Shown piece by piece: positions 28,275-48,895 of a DNA stretch of 64,000 bases. A model generated the notes under the pieces. The model had not been told where the DNA came from. It made no database searches and was given only the letters and a program-made list of their open reading frames with translations. The translations under genes were made by a program, and so were the position numbers. The stretch covers positions 248,001 through 312,000 of the forward strand of contig JAPWGK010000034.1 in the NCBI GenBank assembly GCA_029641185.1, in the 5' to 3' direction. This DNA is from Pseudofabraea citricarpa. Lineage: Eukaryota; Ascomycota; Leotiomycetes; Helotiales; Dermateaceae. Within the stretch, counting starts at the first letter, position 1, and each line of letters starts with the position of its first letter.

Positions 28275-29428
28275 TTATGATGGCCCGGCCTCGTCTTCGT
28301 CCTGTGCGCCATTCGTATCTGGCTCGACCTCATTGACACCGCTGTCGATTACCACAGGTACTCCCCCATTTTGTTTCGCAATTCGCTCGGCCTCTTTCCT
28401 TTCGCGTATAGCCTCGGTTTCTTTTCGTAACTTTTCCATGTTCCAAGCATCATCTTCTTCGTCACCACTATCCTCATCTTCATCCCCGCTAGCATTCCAG
28501 TCTCCCTTCTCGAACATTGCACGACCTGTTGCTTCCTTTGCAAGACGAGCTTGGTCTTCAGCTTGCTTCTTGTCCATGCGTTCTGCCTTCCATTTCGCAA
28601 AAGTCTCAGGTGTAACAGGAGTGAGTGTGCCCGTAAGTTTATGTCGCTCGGATTCCAAGAAATCCTCAAGTGTGAGCGTTTTGAGGGGAGATTTGTCCAT
28701 GAGGGCCTTCTCTGCTGCACGTTGCTCTTTGGTCTTGAGGACGAATCTGGCAGAAAATTAGAAGGAAATGCGATCGAGAAGTCATTCGATACGTACCCAG
28801 GTGGTAACTTGTGCTGATACATGCACTTATCGCCTCCATTTGGGCATGTCCAAAACCAACCGTACTTACCCTCCTCCACTGCTTCAATAAAAAACTTGCA
28901 GACTTTGTCGGTTGTACTCTTCTGGTTACCTTTCTTGGATAAAACTACGGCCTTCAGTTTTTCTTCGTCCCAGTCTTCGGACGTCTCCGCCCGCTTCTTT
29001 TCTTCCTCTTCTTCTCTCGTATCTTGATAGAGATCTTTCTTTTGCGACTTTCTCTCCACATCTAAGTCGTGGGAGAACTTGCACTTTCTTCCCTTTTCGC
29101 AGTGACCTTTCTTATAGAACTGACAGAGTACGGTTTTCGGATCAACACCAAAAGGAACTTTCTGGACTTGGAGAGGCTTGAAAAGCTCGGCGGATTCCTT
29201 CTTGGCCGCCTCTGCTGCAGCCTTGTCCCTTTCCTTCTGTGCTTTCTCTGCCTCTCGTCTCTTTTCGTCTGGTGTGCCACCGGCCTTTGCGGAGACGGTC
29301 ATCTGGGCAATTTGCTTCTGCTTCTGGGCACCTTTCTTGTTTTTCATTCCAAAGGTTCTGTCCTCAACCAACTTGGACGCCGAGGGCTTCTTGCCCCCGC
29401 CCTGCTTCTCGACCTTCTTAGGAGGCAT
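28275..29428 (-). CDS. TMA46: Tma46/DFRP1-type CCCH zinc-finger protein
   Basis: Ribosome-associated partner of the DRG-family GTPase (Rbg1 in yeast; ZC3H15/DFRP1 in animals). Exons 29428-28797 and 28746-28275 (intron 50 nt) give 367 residues. The N-terminus has the conserved start MPPKKVEKQGGGKK and DRTFGMKNKKG. The first CCCH finger is around residue 100 (LCQFYKKGHCEKGRKCKFSH) and the second around residue 180 (CKFF, then CPNGGDKCMYQH). The DFRP region follows (LTLEDFLESERHKL, then TFAKWK), and an acidic tail (EDEDSGDEEDDAW) ends the protein. Length and order match the family. Confidence 0.95.
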
Positions 29429-33390: not shown

Positions 33391-35198
33391 TCATTTGTTT
33401 CGTTTTGCCAAAGCCAAAATGGTCTGGCGATCGAATTCATCGATCTGCTTAAGTGATGTCTTAACATCGGCGAAGGAGGTTTGCTGAGACTTTTGCAGCG
33501 TCTCAAGGAGTTTTCTCAGATCATCCATGGTGGTTGAAGTTGATGTGCCGCTGCCGATCGTTGGGGTATCCTTCTTCGACTGGGCATCTTTGGCCGCTTG
33601 TAGTTTCGCTTTCTCTGCCTTTGCCTTCTCCTCCTCCTTGGCTTTTTCATCTGCCTTCGCTTTCTCTTCTGCCTTTACCTTCTCTGCAGCTTTGGCTTTC
33701 TCCTCTGCCTTTGCCTTCTCTTCGGCGTTGGCTTTCTCTTGAGCTTTGGCTTTCTCCTCGGCTTTGGCCATTTCCTTGGCTTTTGCCTTTGCTTCAGCCT
33801 CCGCCTTTTCATCTGCTTTTGCTTGCTCCTCTGCTCTGGCCTTATCGTCTGCTTTCGCCTTCTCGTCCGCTCTCGCCTTTTCTTCTGCCTTCAATTTCTC
33901 GTCATGATCTACCTTTGTTAGTCTAATGGTCATCTAAATTTGGGAATACATGACGGGGAGAGGCTACGTTGTAGACACAGGTGTTCGGCAGCAGCACTAA
34001 GATCAAGATGATCACATCGGTATCGAACACATCCGTCTTGGACGCAGCAATCTGCAGATAAGTTAGCGTATGCTCCTTCAAGTCAAGTAGTTTCCTTACG
34101 AGATTGGCAGTATCCTTTTTTTTCTGTCTTGTTAACTTCTGAACAATTTGGAAATTGGCAGGTATCTTCTGAAGTCAGCTAGGGAACCGCACGCTCTGGA
34201 CACAAATCTTACGGATAAAACACGTCTTTCGAAAGACTCCAGCTTCGGTCACCATAGGAGCTTGAAGGCAAGTTTCGGCACTACATTTATCTGCACAGAT
34301 AATGAGCGACTTGAACACTTTCATCACCGCACCTATCGAGAAACTTCAGTTGGATCGTGTAGGCTTACGGTCATTACAGTATGCGCCCTTTTTGATGGGC
34401 TTATTACAACCTCTTCTCCAACAAGTGTCTGTCGTCGCGTAAGCAAAAGCATACGGGTGTTGTAGCTACTCACGAGTGTTGCAACACAAGGATTGCGCCA
34501 TCCTGGCGTTTGCACAGTTCTTGCATTTTATATCTGCTCTTTCATCAGATTTATCGGGCAATGTCAAATGATCTCGAGCACTCACGGCTATTACAATAGG
34601 GCTGTCGCTCCGTTCCCTTCTTGGTTGCTAAAAGATTACAGCCCTCTTCTGAGCATTCGAGTGAAATGTCTATCATGATTAGATGCATGGTGACTGACGA
34701 ACGAAGGGGATACCTACGCTGTAAACATAGTAAACGATCTCGGTCGAGGATGACATTCTGGCACTTGAGAATCTGACACGTGTCTAGGTACTCACAAGTT
34801 ACATTTGGTCTTCTGGATAGGGTGCAGACGGCTGGCAATTCTTACGATCAGTTTGTCCGGTGCAGCCATCAAACCCGGGGGCTCTCCTGGAGCTACAGTC
34901 TGCAAACGAACATTTATCTGTGGGCATGAGCGAGTGGCTACACGTATGTGGGTATTCAAATCCACACGAGCAACTCACGTGAGGGGCAGAAGTCGTATCG
35001 TGATTTCTTATCCTCGGTCAGAGCTACCGTCGCCGTGCAGCTCTCCTCGTCACATTTGTCTTTCGGCGTATTAGAATAAGCACTTTCCTGTCCGAGTGGG
35101 GACCGCGAAGATGACTTACGCTCTCGACAGCACGGTAGGTTCTTCGCTGCCGCGGAACTGCAGCCTTTCACTTCGCACTGCTGTCTATTCGACGACAT
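33391..35198 (-). CDS. Ten-module C-x4-C-xn-C-x2-H protein with a Lys/Ala/Glu helix, one module per exon
   Basis: No named family recognised. Eleven exons join in frame to 416 residues: 35198-35120, 35059-34979, 34917-34846, 34783-34718, 34669-34586, 34533-34474, 34428-34369, 34290-34213, 34168-34100, 34051-33968, 33908-33391. All introns are phase 1 and split a C|AY codon, normally His. Each of exons 1-10 encodes one module C-x4-C-x(9-17)-C-x2-H; module 3 has C-x5-H, module 6 has C-x2-C, and module 8 has Gln194 for His. The ligands suggest ten small zinc-binding units. Exon 11 switches to a long AEEKAKA-type repeat (residues about 249-355), predicted to be a stable single alpha helix, then a Ser/Thr linker and a short helical end (DDLRKLLETLQKS). 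No signal peptide or membrane segment. Cytosolic or nuclear scaffold or binding protein is a guess. Confidence 0.85.
33560..33900 (-). repeat. Coding repeat of about 18 nt (AEEKAK-type)
   Basis: Inside exon 11 of the modular gene. Imperfect six-codon units rich in GCC-AAG-GCA-GAG-GAG-AAA words code for Lys/Ala/Glu blocks. The two antisense frames look long only because of this composition. Confidence 0.8.
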
Positions 35199-36317: not shown

Positions 36318-37144
36318 TTTTAGGCAGTCTAATGAGATACGAAGGTTAGCAGTTAGTTCTTGTCGTTGTATCTTAGTTTATAATCCGGATGTGTTCTTAC
36401 ATAAGTGATTAATATTAAGATGAGAAGCAGATACGAAAAATGTTTAGAGATTGCCGCTGAAACCGCGAAGATTCCTTACTTTATACTCAGCAACTAAGCT
36501 AGATTGAAGCTAAAAATTAGTCTTCTTAAAATATAAAGCTACTTGCGAACCTTACTCCTAGTCTCATTTAGTAACATTTTCTAAAAGATAGCGTTAAGCT
36601 TTCAAGGTTTACGATAATGCTTATTGAATTTTGAAAGCTACTTAAAACCGGTATCCACTTCTTCGATACGTGATAACTCAACAGCTGACCTTGAAGGGGT
36701 TTTCTGCTTCCGATAGACTAGTTCGCAACAGCAACAAATTCATTTAAAGAAATGTATGAAATAAGTGGAAATTCTTGATATTTGTGAGTAAAAAGTTTTA
36801 TTCTAATATATCGCTCAATCCATAAAGTGTTCTGTGCGGAAGTATGAAAATACGGAGGGTCTTTTGATAAAAATGATATTTATGAAGACAGAGGATGATG
36901 AGTTTAGTCACACGTTCATTGGTTGGGATATAGATCTAGACTTTTAACGATTTATCCGGATGCCAATCAAAAGCTACGCCCTCTTTTCAACTACGTCGTC
37001 AGCCGTTCCCCGCTCGGTTAACAGGCTGCATATATTCTGCCAGGCTCCCAAGCTGTTGGATAGATGCCATTTCTCAGGATCCATTCTTGGCTCAATCTAT
37101 TTCCATCTTGTGTTCGTAAATCAAAAAGTCTCCTTCCGGACAAA
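36318..37144. other. AT-rich intergenic DNA
   Basis: Promoters of the small TM gene (-) and of the PhyH gene (+). Nothing else. Confidence 0.45.
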
Positions 37145-38159
37145 ATGCCAACCTCAACAGATTATTCCCTCACTGAAGCCCAGAAAGCTCAGTTTCTCAA
37201 CCATGGATATGTCAAGATCCCAGGCTGCTTCAGCCGTGCAGACGCCGCGTTTCTGACTTCCCAGATGTGGGTTCGTCTTGGCATGTCACCGAATGACAAG
37301 AGCACTTGGACGACCGAGCGGACCAACATGCCCTGGCACAAACTGACGCGGGTATCGGAATTTGCACCGAAAGCCTGGGCGGCGATGTGTGAGCTGCTGG
37401 GCGGAGAAGACCGAATTTCCGAGGATATGCGGTCTTGGAGCGATGGGTTCATTGTGAATCTGGGCAAGGAAGAGTATGCAGAAGATGACGAGCTGCGATT
37501 TCGAGACTTGGATGGCTGGCACAACGATGGTGATTTCTTTGTGCATTTTCTCGATAGCCCTGAGCAGGCGTTGTTGGTGATCCCACTGTTTAGTGATATT
37601 GAACCCCGTGGGGGAGGGACTGTTATTAATGGTGATGGGATCCGAGCTATTGCTAAACATCTGGTATGTAATTTATACAACGAGAGACACAATAGCTAAT
37701 AGGTAGCAGTACGATCACCCTGAAGGTGTGACGCCTTGGATGCGATCAGTCAACAGCTCAAACGCACTTACTGAGGACGGAGACTTCTGGCGCAATCTTG
37801 CTCAAGATCCCCTCGAGACACGAGAGGAGAATTTTGTTGAGGCTACTGGCGAAGTTGGGGACGTGTATCTTTTGCATCCTTTCATGCTACATACGGCTTC
37901 AAAGAATTTCCTTCGCAAACCACGCATCATCACCAACCCACCTGTCTCGCTTAAAGAGCCGTTCCAATATGACAGGGAGGATAAGAGTCAGTATAGCTTA
38001 GTGGAGTTGAAGACTTTGAAGGACCTGGGAATGCCGGATGGGTTGAAAAACTGGAAGATTGAGGGACAAAGAATGGGTTGGGTTCCTGCGAGGATTAAAA
38101 GAATGGATGAAATGAAGAGACAGGAGCTTGAGAGATTGCAAAATAAAAGTATTTCTTAA
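37145..38159 (+). CDS. Phytanoyl-CoA dioxygenase (PhyH) family protein
   Basis: Fe(II)/2-oxoglutarate-dependent oxygenase of the PhyH superfamily. Exons 37145-37663 and 37710-38159 (intron 46 nt) give 322 residues; an alternative acceptor 3 nt upstream would insert one Gln. The iron facial triad is visible as the His and Asp of GWHNDGDFF and the distal His of LLHPFMLHTAS, with the 2-oxoglutarate Arg in RKPRIITNPP. The N-terminal FLNHGYVKIPG is typical of the fold. Fungal members act in secondary metabolism or lipid hydroxylation. No biosynthetic cluster surrounds it, so the substrate is open. Confidence 0.9.
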
Positions 38160-39078
38160 CTACTGAAAGAAATGAATATTGTTTTGATAGTGTACTAAAT
38201 TGATCATTCTGGTCCGATGAAAAATTCCTAAAACTCTGACATCGATTATTCATGACTTCTCCAAAATAAAAAGTAAAGACAACTAATGTTGTTATTGGTG
38301 ACGGCACCAAAATTACCTGAAGCATATATTGCTTTCAGGTTCTTTGAATATTGAATAAGTAAACGTAGCACGCCGCAAACTTGCAAATAGCTACGATTAC
38401 AGGAATCGAAGGTCGTGTTAACTATCTTTTGTGCAATTTGCTACTTACAAAGAATATCCGTATGCAAAACTTAACTAGATAAATGAGTTCTATAGAGATG
38501 GATACCGCCACATATGATACTGTAGCCTTACTTTTGTGATAGCTCTAGATGCCACTTGATCATTCAAAGTAAAGCTACCAAGCTGACTTTTACTCAATTA
38601 ACAATACCACTCGAGACTACGTTCAAGGTTTTTTGACTCTATGAAAATGAATATTAAACCTGATACTTCTTATTCGATCAGAAACTCGACAATTCTTGGT
38701 GCTTTGATCACTTGACTAGTACTACATTTGCCCAGGCCGCACCCTGGCACCTAGCTATGTCACCTGAGATCGTCAACGTTGAACGAGGAACTCGAAATTG
38801 CCTCCACAACCAAGGATTCTATACTTGCCTTACACTTCTTGGTCTTTATTAGAAGATCGATAATTATCTCCATGATTAATAACTCATCGTTAATTCGCCA
38901 AGTACTATCACCTGACCTCCAATTCAACTTCGAGACATCCCGCGTCGTTTAAGCTTCGAGAATCACACCATAACACAACGGTAAAGAAAAGTTGCCAGCT
39001 CTCAAATCAACCGCCTTGCACGACCAAAATTCTGCCGAATACCAGGAAAGTAGTTTGTGTTTTATTTGGAATACCACG
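38160..39078. other. AT-rich intergenic DNA
   Basis: No supported gene. The right end is the LDH promoter and leader. An in-frame ATG at 38992 would extend LDH by 29 poorly conserved-looking residues and is not preferred. Confidence 0.45.
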
Positions 39079-40131
39079 ATGTCTGCTTCCAGCGGTTCAA
39101 TCGCGATCATAGGCGCGGGTTCTGTTGGCTCAGCCGTGGCATACTCCCTCCTCCTCCGACAAGTTGTGGCCGATCTTATCATGGTGGACATAGACAACGA
39201 CCTGTGCCAGGCTCAAGTGCAAGATCTGTCCGATGCAACTTTTCTCTCCAATGTCAAGATCCGCCAAGGAAGCCCCGCGGATGCCCGGAAAGCTGACATT
39301 ATCATCATTACTGCTGGAGCAAAGCAGAAGCCTGGTGATACACGACTTGATCTGATTGATCGAAACCTCAAGGTCCTGAAGTCAATCTTGCAGTCCCTCC
39401 ACCCGATCCGGAACGATGCTATCCTCCTCGTTGCTAATCCTGTCGACATTCTCACCTTGTTCGCCCAGAGGCTCTCAGGCTTGCCGAAGGGCCAGGTGCT
39501 TGGATCTGGTACTTTGCTGGACTCTATTAGGCTTACTCGAATCCTTGCTAGCAAGCTGAAAGTGAGTTTGGCTTTTATTCTATCACGAGTTATCTACAGG
39601 TGGGTTAGTAAACTAATGTTTATTTAGGTCTCTGACAATTCTATTCACGCGTTCGTAATTGGCGAGCATGGAGATTCTCAGTGTGTAGGTTTGAGTGCAG
39701 TATCTCATATCCGTTAAAACGTGCTAATAATAAATTTCCTTCGCCAACAGATCGCTTGGTCCAATGCAACCGTATACGGAACACCACTTTTGCAGACACT
39801 TCCGCTATCAAAAGCTGAGCAGGATGAGATTGCATTGACGACCCGAAAGAAGGCAGAAACTATCATCAAGGTGAAAGGATTTACTTCGTATGGTGTTGCT
39901 GCTGTGACAGCAAGGATATGTGAAAGCATCATCTTTGATCATCGGCAAGTTTTGCCTCTCAGCCACTGGCAAGAGGAGTGGGATTGTTGCCTGAGCCTTC
40001 CTGCTGTTTTGGGTAGAGAGGGTATCATATCCTCTTTCCCTCTCCGCTTAGATGAGAACGAGCAGACGTTTCTGTCCAACTCGGCGAAGGGATTAGTCAA
40101 GATCATAGGAGAGTATTCAGAGGAACTGTGA
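39079..40131 (+). CDS. L-lactate dehydrogenase (NAD-dependent)
   Basis: Exons 39079-39561, 39628-39684 and 39751-40131 give 306 residues, the usual LDH length. The nucleotide loop GAGSVGSA is followed by an Asp at the end of strand 2 (MVDID), which selects NAD. The substrate loop carries GAKQKPGDTR: the Gln at the specificity position points to lactate rather than malate (Arg in malate dehydrogenases), and the Arg follows in DTR. LLDSIRL supplies the Asp and Arg of the active site, and GEHGDSQ the catalytic His175. The 57-nt middle exon holds the catalytic His alone. LDH would interconvert pyruvate and L-lactate, either fermentatively or for growth on lactate. The C-terminal region is less conserved but complete. 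Confidence 0.9.
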
Positions 40132-43917: not shown

Positions 43918-46900
43918 TTTACCACGACGCGGAAAGCTGTTTCGCGGACACTACTCTCTAGTGTTGGTGGATTCTCTCAGCCAAACCGTCGCCAGATTCG
44001 ATCCCTCCAGCAGCTTCTGGGCACTATTCGAACTCTGGGTCTACACTTCACGCCCGGACACACACTGCACGAAGAGGGTTTTTGTGGTGAGGGCGTGTCG
44101 TACCGCGTTTTAAGATGTCGACAGGCACCCGGAGCTCAGGTTGTTGCCGTAAAACAGATCAAGCTCCCGAATTTCGCGAGCCCCGAGGCGTTCGAGCGCC
44201 AAGTAGCATGTGTTCTACGTGATATCGAGGTAAATATGTGTCCTGGGATTGATATGGTGAAGTAACAGCTGGCTAAATCGATGCAAGGTCATGTCCCATG
44301 GCCCTCTGGCGAGCCACCCGAATGTCTTGGACATTATTGGTTATGGCTGGGACATCAAGGGAAATGGGAGTATTCCATATCTGGTAACCGAGTATGCGAC
44401 TGAGGGTACAATGAGGGACTATCTGCGAAGACGTAAACTTCCCAGCAGGGACAAGTTGGTGCTGTGTCAAAATGTGGCCAAAGGCCTGCACGAATTGCAT
44501 CTTTGTGGGATGGCTCATGGCGATCTAAAGCTGGACAACGTGCTCATCACTCCCGACCTGACACCAAAAACGTTTTCACATGGCGTGGTGGCTAAGATTT
44601 CGGATTTTGGACACTCCCTTATGCTGTACGAAGAGGGCGATGCACGAGAAGACCAACGATATGGTGGGACCTTGGCATATAATGCACCTGAAATTCTCAA
44701 AGACCGAGGAGCGAATTGGACCTCCGTAAATCTGCGAAAATGCGATATTTGGGCATTGGGATTGTTGTGCTGGGAAGCTCTGGACAATGGCTTGGCATTT
44801 TACAAAACTCCTCGAATTCTGGACTTAATCGCTTTTGTTAAAACCGACTCAAATTCCTCTTCCTTCAATAGTGCCAGCGGAGGAAATGACACAAACAATA
44901 CAAGTAAAGCATCCTCGGACAGTCTATTGGATGGCTTAGCTCTGGTGGCTGATCGCCTGCAAGATGCGGCATTGCAATTTCTGGAATCTGATACCGTGAA
45001 GGATTTGCATGGTTTTGAAAGCTTCAAGTTGAAAGATCTCTTCAAGGCTACTTTGGCGATTGATCCAGATAAAAGAGTCGCCGACATTCCACAGCTGCCA
45101 ATATTGTCGAAGAGCAAAGCTTCCGAGAATCGCATGAGGCTGGGTCAGCAAAACAACAAACCAGAGTGGTCATTCGACATGTTTCGTCCGGCTCAAATGT
45201 CCCAGATACCATACTCAGTAAAAGTACAAATTTTCAACGATTGTAATCGAATAGGATCTGAGGCCGGCCGCTCAACTACTTCGGCACAAGCTGCGTTCCA
45301 CGTCGGCATAGCCTATCTCGCAGGATTTGGAACGTCAGTTGATCTTGAAAAGGCCATGGATTGGATATCAAAGAGTTTCTCGAAAGGCCTTCCTGTTAGC
45401 AATCTCTTCGGCAACATTTTCAAAGCAGCTTTTCTCGATGACGATACTGAATCTCTTGAAAGCAGTAAAGTCCGATACACAAATGCTGTTCGCTTTGGCT
45501 TTCAAAACATCGATATTCCATACCTCGAGAACTCACAGTTCAAGTCAAAGCTTACATACCAACAGTTAAAAGTAGTCGCTGCTGATTATGAACGCGAGAG
45601 CCGAGAAAGCAGCACTTTTAGCGAGGAGACACTGCCTTTTCTAGTGGCACACTATGCAGTTGTGCACGGATTGACGGGATTTATTCAAGATGATGATTAC
45701 ATTAATCTGCAAGAACCGACAACTGGGGAAACACCCCTTTTCCTAGCCTGCCGACTGGGAGACATGGATGCTGTAAAACACTTAATGGCACGCGGAGCAG
45801 ACCCTCTTCTTCCAGCTATTGATGGATGCTTGCCTATTCACTGGCTGTGGATGTTTCCGCCAGAATCCCAAAGGTTTGTAGCTGAAGTTTTGTTTCTTCC
45901 TTTTGGTTCACTCTGGTCAGAGATGGCCATCCAACAAGAGCAAGGCGGCGCTGTTTGGGACCAACCAATGCTAGAATTAGTCAAGAGAACTGTCAACACA
46001 ACGACTTCGAGCATTCGTTCCCTAGACCAGCAACTTCCGCTTCAGTTGCTAGGAACACCATTGTCTTTTGCGGTTGCAGTCGCTTCAAAACCGACCGTTG
46101 ACTTGTTACTCGAGCTTGGAGCAGATTCAGATGTTGGTCCCGACCCTCCACCAGAAGATGTTCGCAACCGAAACCCTATTTGTCTAGCTATGAGCCTACA
46201 CCTCAGGGATATCCTGGATGGCTTCTTGCCTAGTGCTGGGGTTTATCTTGATCTAGACCCAGATGCAAAATTTTATTATGTTAAGGACGAGAGTGAAGCT
46301 TGGAGAGGGCTTGTGGACACATCACCAATTGAACGTACTCTTATACATGGAGTTCGTGCCCGTGAGGCCGCTCAGCAAATATTCGAGTTTGTTCATGGCC
46401 ATGTGACATATCATGGCGAAGTTACGCGGCCCAAGCTAGCTGCTTCTGCTATTGAGGTATCAGATGTTACTATGGCAAGTATTGCATTGCCTATGGAACT
46501 TTGTACTGAGGAAGGAGGGTTGGTTTTGACACCATATGAGAAAGACTCTTTACTTCTTTCTTGCACCCGAGCCGCATGCGCCGGAGGTCTGGAACCAGAA
46601 AGATGTATAGAGGTATTGGAATTTGCTATGTCTCGAGGATCTGCGATCAACTGTGATCTTGATTCTCACGACAAATCAAGAGCTATAAATATCGCCATCG
46701 AATACAAGCACGAAGAGGTTCTGGGCTGGTTTCTGCGCAATGATGTCGACCTGAATCTTCCAGACACGGATGGATCCTACGCGCTTCATCTTATGATCAG
46801 CAATGGCTTTTCTGACACCTGTTCTATCACGCGACTGCTTGAAGCATCTGCTGACCCAAATGTAATTGATGAAGAAACGGGAGATTCACCACTACATTTT

Positions 46901-48895
46901 GCAGTAGAAAGCCAGAGGCTGAAGGACGTTGCAATCTTGCTAGATTATGGAGCAGATCCTTCTATACAAAGTCGTGCAGTACAACAAACTAAAGGAACTC
47001 CGCTCCATTATGCCATCCAAACCAAGAAGCCAGAATTGGTCGAGCTTTTACTCAAACATATAATGAAATCTGAACAATCCCCACCAGCTGTGCTAGAGTC
47101 GAGAGACAATACATTCCAAACGCCTTTACTCTTAGCGGCATTCCAGGGAGAGACTCAAGTACTTAAGCTTCTGGTAGAAGCTGGCTCGAATTTATATGCA
47201 CAAAACAGCGAGGGCTTTAATTGCCTTCATGTGGCCGCACGCCAGAGGCATTTCGACATTCTGAACTACCTTATAAACAAAATGGGTGTTTATTCCGTAA
47301 CAAGTATAGAAGGACACACAGCACTCCATCTTGTCATGGCATTGCTAGGGGATGAGCAATCTACAGCATGTGGCGTTTCATTACTGCAAGCCGGCGCCGA
47401 TCCTCTAGCTCCGAATTTTCGCGGTGTAACACCATTGTCCTTATTCGCCTTGCAAATAGAAGATGGGCGTGGCCATGAACTCAGACAACCACTACTCGAG
47501 AAACTCGTTGAACGACAGGTCGATCTCGATAGTCATGGTCCCGACAAACCACCCGTTCTTCATGTGGCCATACGTAATCAAGACTATGACCTTGTGAAGG
47601 ATTTCCTAGATGCTGGTGCATCAATTTCGAACATCTATGCAGGAGCAATGCCTCTACACACATGCGCATCTGTGGGATTAACTTGGTCCCCAAATTACAA
47701 TACTCTTCATGCACTATTACAGAATAGTTGCAGGATAGCTGAGCTCCTAATAGAGAGGGGTGCAGATTTTCGGAAGGAGGATGAGAACGCCAACACTCCC
47801 TTAATGCTTGCCGTTGATGCTGGAAATACGCCCATCATTCAACTTCTGTTGTCCTGTTATCTAAAAACGGCAGCATTGTTTGATATAAATGAAGATGTTA
47901 CGACGCATACTACAACGGTCTCCAGTCATCAATGGTTAGGATCTCCTCGTCGTTGGCTGAAAAAGATGGGTGGATCGATAGACAGATTATCTGAGGATGG
48001 AAGGTGCCAGGAACGGCTACGAGCTCTCTCCCCCGACGACCAGAAAGACGTTATCTCTGCTTGGAATAATGCAATAGTATCATCGAGATGGGCTAGCGTT
48101 TGTGCAATCATGGAAGCGAATCTCCATGGCAACACCAAAGCTTTCTGGTTGAACTTTGAAAGTGGTTGCGACCTTCTCCGCTATGCCCTAAAGAACGATA
48201 TAGGACATGTGCTCAAAAAGTTTATGGGTTGCGCTGGATCTGAGTCTGCCTCGAAGACTGTCAAGGATAAGAATCTAGTGTTTGTATGGAAAGAGCTATT
48301 CTCCGAGAAGTCCTCTACACTTCAGAATTCCAAGAGCAAGACTCAAGGATCCGTACAGGCACCACCATACTCTGATAAGTCCGCAAAGAAGTCGAGCAAG
48401 CCTATCCGTGTAGAAGGAGATATATCATACGTCGAGACCACTCAGGACAGCAGTGGGAACATCGAGGTGTTCGCATTAGAACCTCGGATTTCGAGTGACT
48501 ATGTATCATTTCCGGTTCAAGGCGTGCCCTCTAGCTTCCGGACGCTGATGTGGGCTAGTCGCGGAGAAGACATGCACAGCACAACGCTGTTGCGGATTGC
48601 CCAATTCGTCAGGTGTAAAGGCTACGATCCCAGCCTCGATCTAGCATCTATCCGCGCTGCTGGCTTTATCGAGGCCCAGCTAGAATACACCAAGGAGGCG
48701 GTAAAACTACCAGGCATCAATGAGGAAGAGCGCGTCTTTGAGTCCATCTTTTTTGAAGACGAGGATGACGACGGTGATCTGTTTGCTCTGTTTGGTGCCG
48801 AGATCGAGCATCAGCTTCAATCTCTACTGCCTGCCATGGCGACTAAGGTTCCGAGGGATCCATCGTGGGGCTTTTCTGGGTCGGTGTATAATTAA
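43918..48895 (+). CDS. Large protein kinase / Sel1 / ankyrin-repeat protein (5' end unresolved)
   Basis: From 43918 (first base after the likely acceptor) the kinase frame runs 43918-44229 and 44288-48895 (intron 58 nt), over 1630 residues; one or more 5' exons are missing. An active kinase domain comes first: P-loop GEGVSYRV, VVAVKQI with the ATP Lys, catalytic MAHGDLKLDNVLI, DFG as ISDFGHS, and APE as YNAPEIL. A Sel1-like segment follows (FHVGIAYLAGFGTSVDLEKAM), then about ten degenerate ankyrin repeats (GETPLFLACRLGDMDAV; GDSPLHFAVESQRL; GTPLHYAIQTKKPEL; FNCLHVAARQRHFDI; NTPLMLAVDAGNTPI). The C-terminus has a Ser/Lys-rich linker and an acidic patch (FFEDEDDDGD). No NACHT or NB-ARC domain is present. 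Predicted cytosolic receptor-like kinase. Start and upstream frame need checking. Confidence 0.85.

Follow-up and report, generated by a model that had tools for sequence, protein, structure and literature searches.

What kind of gene places one predicted zinc-binding unit on each of ten consecutive exons, with the intron falling inside the codon of the last metal ligand, and is such an array still being rearranged? The gene in question lies on the minus strand (35198–33391) of a 64,000-nucleotide stretch of Pseudofabraea citricarpa DNA (contig JAPWGK010000034.1, positions 248,001 to 312,000), referred to here as the window. Genes with one exon per module are a textbook feature of animals; to our knowledge, reports of them from ascomycetes, where genes are usually intron-poor, are rare. 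A first-pass annotation of the sequence read the locus as an exon-shuffling engine for a variable zinc-binding array, fused to a rigid spacer.

Gene structure and exon organization

The gene has 11 exons and 10 introns, with one zinc-type unit of the C-x4-C-xn-C-x2-H kind on each of exons 1–10 (Table 1). Exon borders were placed by the open frames, by splice consensus and by comparison with one relative, itself a predicted protein, and the spliced reading frame is open over 416 aa (415 aa with the downstream of two possible acceptors at exon 9). All ten introns are GT-AG, in phase 1 and 44–78 nt long, intron 8 being 44 nt with the upstream acceptor and 47 nt with the downstream one. The module exons are 79, 81, 72, 66, 84, 60, 60, 78, 69 and 84 nt long and the last exon is 518 nt, which bears out the first-pass description of ten consecutive phase-1 module exons of 60–84 nt, those from exon 2 to exon 10 all being multiples of three. 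One module per symmetric exon holds in 10 of 10 cases, exon 1 being the first exon of the gene. The gene is real.

Table 1. Features of the window gene (positions are those of the 64-kb window).
Feature	Position	Strand	Remarks
Exon 1, start codon and module 1 (C-x4-C-x10-C-x2-H)	35120..35198	-	
Exon 2, module 2 (C-x4-C-x16-C-x2-H)	34979..35059	-	Also in grammar scan
Exon 3, module 3 (variant, ends C-x5-H)	34846..34917	-	Final His also in Coleophoma
Exon 4, module 4	34718..34783	-	Also in grammar scan
Exon 5, module 5	34586..34669	-	
Exon 6, module 6 (C-x2-C variant)	34474..34533	-	Same variant in Coleophoma
Exon 7, module 7	34369..34428	-	Also in grammar scan
Exon 8, module 8	34213..34290	-	Also in grammar scan
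CAGAAG tandem acceptor before exon 9	34166..34171	-	Upstream AG gives Gln-Asp; downstream AG gives module 8 ligand His
Exon 9, module 9	34100..34168 (34165-34100 with downstream acceptor)	-	Also in grammar scan
Exon 10, module 10	33968..34051	-	Also in grammar scan; whole module missing from Coleophoma protein
Exon 11 (last), charged helix (predicted), linker, conserved tail, stop	33391..33908	-	
AEEKAK-type charged stretch	33580..33906	-	109 aa: 35 A, 30 K, 25 E
Conserved C-terminal tail and stop	33391..33534	-	40/47 residues identical to Coleophoma

The strict form C-x4-C-x(9-17)-C-x2-H is found in eight of the ten modules, with middle spacers of 10, 16, 11, 14, 9, 15, 11 and 17 residues, and the exceptions are modules 3 and 6. 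Both had been recognized as variants in the first-pass annotation; module 8 was listed with them, and its departure is probably a matter of splice-site choice (see below). The 244-residue array contains 34 Cys and 12 His, with 30 Cys and 10 His as predicted ligands. Between the last His of one module and the first Cys of the next there are 1–4 residues, and the mean identity of the modules to one another is 32%.

We also scanned both strands of the window with the exon pattern AG/AY...C-x4-C...C-x-x-C/GT (slashes mark splice junctions). There are seven matches in the 64 kb, every one inside the gene, and these correspond to six of the ten module exons (one matched twice; exons 1, 3, 5 and 6 were missed). 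The same scan of 20 first-order Markov windows of 64 kb gave no match. The exon grammar of the gene is beyond chance.

Elsewhere in the window there are open frames with CCCH zinc-finger spacing (28275–29428, minus strand), which we take to resemble a conserved eukaryotic CCCH protein; presumed lactate/malate dehydrogenase-like frames (38992–40131, plus strand) that adjoin a presumably dioxygenase-like gene (37064–38159); and a 1534-aa open frame (44291–48895, plus strand) that we assume to encode a protein kinase-like region followed by ankyrin repeats.

A relative in Coleophoma cylindrospora

A large protein database was queried with the first 245 residues, and among 405 candidates the sole protein at E ≤ 0.001 was BP6252_09694 of Coleophoma cylindrospora (E 3.7e-100), which is uncharacterised. 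Its nine modules follow the order of the window gene and are succeeded by a charged stretch and the tail; it differs from the window protein in lacking exactly module 10 and in having a shorter charged stretch. The best local alignment has 167 of 268 positions identical; identity is 153 of 215 aligned residues over the array and 53 of 96 over the charged stretch. Each of the nine modules matches its own position best (58–88% identity). All 36 predicted ligands over the nine modules (27 Cys and 9 His) are kept. In this count the His of module 8 is the one given by the downstream acceptor, and that of module 9 is read across an alignment gap: it borders the gap opposite module 10, where each protein has a His. 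At non-ligand positions, three His (His/Thr, His/Asn and His/Gln) and one Cys are not kept.

Module 10 appears in the alignment as a clean insertion between module 9 and the sequence HDEK. The pattern is exactly the one expected had exon 10 been gained, lost or skipped; an annotation choice in Coleophoma would look identical.

Two further arrays in the same genome

Searching the P. citricarpa genome with the array revealed module exons on another contig (C23), and a 9.9 kb segment read there (L010) contains two tandem genes, A and B. The gene B model has 15 module positions on 13 exons followed by a short tail exon, with a frame open over 399 aa to the stop codon; one of the positions is degenerate, with two Cys. 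The gene A model has 12 modules on 11 exons and then a tail exon, and is open over 333 aa, with its stop codon just past the end that we had set and other spacing in two of its modules. The first candidate module of gene A (L010 8090-8020, minus strand of C23) contains an internal stop and the later exons are open; the gene may be decaying, or may start elsewhere.

Modules A7–A13 (7 of 7) best match B9–B15 in order, one two-module exon included, and the remaining five of the 12 gene A modules (A2–A6) have no in-order match to B. There are three two-module exons in genes A and B, in each of which the His codon is whole. Some of the junctions between modules are longer than in the window gene, reaching 14 residues. 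Of 34 modules examined, 24 have F or Y just before the third Cys, and the exon architecture is common to three loci of one genome. The two genes end in differing short tails (L010 6494-6392 and 3456-3359) that have no charged stretch; one type of array is thus found with three different last exons.

No further array locus was found in own-genome searches with A, B, BP6252_09694 and an invented array; these searches are insensitive, the A, B and invented-array queries having missed the window gene, and diverged arrays could escape them. With BP6252_09694 as query, three weak matches to its charged stretch appeared in addition. The 40 kb flanking the A/B pair contain no module exons that fit the grammar, and one scan each of a prokaryote genome collection and a viral contig collection, with two short peptide patterns, returned no relatives.

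The split ligand codon and a tandem acceptor

In the window gene and our models of genes A and B, 34 of 34 introns lie at C/AY, a count that is partly by construction, the same rule having guided the choice of splice sites in A and B; the open frames do not share this circularity. The first-pass claim that introns always interrupt the codon of the final ligand stands to that extent, and the exception that it made, a Gln in place of His in module 8, probably does not. Intron 8 has CAGAAG at its 3' end, ahead of exon 9, where the first AG gives Gln-Asp-Thr and the second, 3 nt further on, gives His-Thr and an exon of 66 nt instead of 69. Because the Coleophoma protein reads CFIHTC at the end of module 8, and because AAG also terminates five of the 33 other introns in the models (once as CAGAAG), module 8 probably ends in His by way of the second AG. 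Given the tandem acceptor and the Coleophoma sequence, a Gln ligand is unlikely. The CAGAAG acceptor in gene B (L010 4147-4142) likewise toggles a ligand His against Gln-Asp in the model.

Age and origin of the array

Module number varies between relatives: there is a whole-exon difference of 10 modules against 9 in Coleophoma (which could be annotation), and the models of A and B have 13 and 15 positions respectively, counting the A position with the stop and the degenerate one in B. Recent copies or signs of ongoing rearrangement were not found. There are no direct DNA repeats of at least 16 bp in the module region, and the 34 introns have a mean local similarity of 6.4, against 6.1 in one set of shuffles, with a maximum of 13 in both. 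Active shuffling by recent duplication was rejected on the absence of such repeats together with the low similarity between modules, and introner-like elements are unsupported, the introns being no more alike than in the one shuffle set. Since nine of nine modules keep their positions relative to Coleophoma, no such repeats are present and the introns are not alike, we read the array as old and order-stable, a modular architecture and not the present-day shuffling engine that had been suggested.

Ancient exon duplication with half-introns, followed in places by precise intron loss, is, we infer, the best account of the shared boundary. The family would have grown by duplicating an exon together with its flanking half-introns, a step that should be safe because the module exons have phase-1 boundaries at both ends and, whichever of them are joined, the half-codons C and AY restore the final ligand. 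Such growth would have been old and slow, and only whole-module differences are seen. More broadly, we tentatively suggest that these genes belong to an undescribed fungal family of zinc modules, kin to the EsV-1-7/WRKY19-type fingers, that grew by exon duplication with the junction inside a ligand codon. Each exon would carry a half-ligand that the next exon completes, such that duplication, loss and skipping all leave intact fingers, and at the mRNA level ligands and the number of modules may then be adjusted through tandem acceptors and skipped exons.

The alternative that the His codons were split by insertion of introns at repeated sites, either as introner-like elements or at a preferred site, is unlikely. 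The three two-module exons with an intact His codon in genes A and B could represent the state before insertion, although precise intron loss accounts for them equally well, and the presence of a two-module exon at matching positions in A and B makes it seem older than the split between the two genes. Moreover, the 34 introns are not alike beyond chance, and C/A differs from the usual insertion site, MAG/R.

We regard as somewhat less likely again that the array is primarily one of regulated splicing, in which exon skipping makes isoforms with differing numbers of modules. Exons 2–10 could all be skipped in frame, and an mRNA without exon 10 would have precisely the junction of the Coleophoma protein; the donor that follows this exon (GTAGCC) looks weak, and the CAGAAG acceptor could switch the module 8 His to Gln-Asp. 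However, the module missing from Coleophoma may reflect a genuine difference between the genes or the way in which the Coleophoma gene was annotated.

The charged stretch and tail

The first-pass annotation has the gene ending in an AEEKAK helix on a single exon; the last exon carries 109 residues dominated by Ala, Lys and Glu, followed by a linker and the tail. Ala residues recur at a spacing of six, with few at seven, a pattern more consistent with one stiff helix than with a coiled coil, and the stretch is probably one long helix. In an AlphaFold2 model of BP6252_09694 computed from the single sequence, a helix is predicted at residues 203–307 (block pLDDT 48–89, and 63–89 over residues 211–300), which is in keeping with the proposed rigid spacer; the structure prediction was of no help for the zinc part, where block pLDDT is 24–40 and too low for use. 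The DNA encoding the AEEKAK stretch is an 18-bp minisatellite (window 33623–33888; 14.8 copies, 71% matches), and the length of this stretch differs from that in Coleophoma. NCBIfam matches to TolA and similar proteins fall on the charged stretch of BP6252_09694 and were set aside. The conserved tail has one match within the P. citricarpa genome, and four PDB matches to it are at chance level; a PDB search with the array gave no match.

Possible function

We propose, with moderate confidence, that the window protein is a non-secreted multi-zinc-finger adaptor, its zinc binding and function being predicted from sequence. Each unit would bind one zinc as a small independent finger, and the array would offer a multivalent surface for nucleic acid or protein, with a role linked to transcription or RNA being the most likely. 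The stiff helix would hold the array away from the tail, and the tail may bind a partner or oligomerise. A signal peptide on the window protein is unlikely because only seven residues precede the first ligand; the window protein, BP6252_09694 and the gene B product all start nearly at a module, leaving little room for one. The absence of the charged stretch and tail from A and B counts against the adaptor reading. That the protein is instead a metal buffer, a cysteine-rich zinc or copper store like metallothionein with no nucleic-acid role, is suggested by its content of Cys and His but is improbable, as the ligands fall into separate sets of four with a preferred neighbouring residue (F/Y), and storage alone would not call for the observed conservation of unit order and of the C-terminal tail.

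Comparison with known zinc-finger families

The first-pass annotation did not recognize the module as a named domain, and we agree: no Pfam family was reached at its curated cut-off by the whole window and Coleophoma proteins, and the literature that we searched contains, at the level of titles and abstracts, no description that we recognized as this family. Scanning of single modules (33 of 35, two of fewer than 20 residues being left out) gave 11 sub-threshold matches to nine families. Five of these are zinc-finger families that end in C-x2-H or close to it, namely Zf_WRKY19 (two modules, best E 0.0024), zf-C3Hc3H (two) and zf-TRM13_CCCH, EsV_1_7_cys and WRC (one each); the others are zf-B_box_Trim66, CCHC_ZFPM2, DUF5972 and Perm-CXXC (one module each). 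The placeable matches to the five come from gene B and BP6252_09694. None of the window's own ten modules matched these five families, and their three weak matches are all among the latter four. When 30 modules were shuffled once with the ligands fixed, a single match remained, to another family, and all five zinc-finger families were lost. The resemblance therefore involves more than ligand spacing. The modules belong to none of the matched families at cut-off but look like a known style of zinc finger.

The best match among the modules is the WRKY19 zinc finger (PF24906), which has C-x4-C-xn-C-x2-H in register with them and is matched by 2 of 33, reaching at best 17.8 bits among the matches listed, against a cut-off of 27; there is also a weak match in module 7 of BP6252_09694 (residues 149–167, E 0.046). 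WRKY19 fingers carry a Gly-rich HGGG after the last ligand, whereas in the window modules the residue next to the last His is K, T, I, C or H, without HGGG. In the P. citricarpa genome, Zf_WRKY19 has five weak matches away from the array loci, one of which (on contig C5) reads like a C2H2 finger and was discounted. Searches of that genome with Zf_WRKY19 and EsV-1-7 gave no match at the three array loci, and a six-frame search with the EsV-1-7 family gave none in the genome. Formal membership in either family was rejected, the cut-offs being missed. Sub-threshold matches to zf-C3Hc3H (PF13891) and WRC (PF08879) are on gene B modules (E 0.014–0.025; cut-offs of 27 and 28.6 bits missed); both families end in C-x2-H and are larger domains with other spacing.

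The EsV-1-7 motif (PF19114) occurs in brown algae and giant viruses and in the Ectocarpus IMM protein. EsV-1-7 proteins are expanded in brown algae and occur in viral genomes, with a patchy distribution (PMC7457493, PMC12993054); they are also hypothesised to be zinc-finger transcription factors (PMC12629598) and described as a possible uncharacterised zinc-finger class (PMC12477816).

For the P. citricarpa loci, the finding of three arrays with one exon per module in one genome, and with the junction inside a predicted metal ligand, makes the family a clean test case for symmetric exons as a driver of repeat expansion in non-animal lineages. The family may also hint at an unnamed class of C-x4-C-xn-C-x2-H fingers with a skeleton common to fungi, plants, brown algae and giant viruses. 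The EsV-1-7 repeat has the formula C-x4-C-x16-C-x2-H, in agreement with the 26-position span of the profile, and about 12 residues between units, unlike the 1–4 in the window gene. PF19114 is matched by 1 of 33 modules and by none of the ten in the window; the match is module B6, aligned to profile positions 1–26 all the way from its first Cys to its last His (E 0.022; 15.0 bits, cut-off 25). The likeness is nevertheless in register: EsV-1-7 proteins and the arrays described here both consist of short repeated C-x4-C-xn-C-x2-H units, the EsV-1-7 ligand spacing is met exactly by module 2, and the same skeleton with a middle spacer of 9–17 residues is found in eight of the ten window modules.
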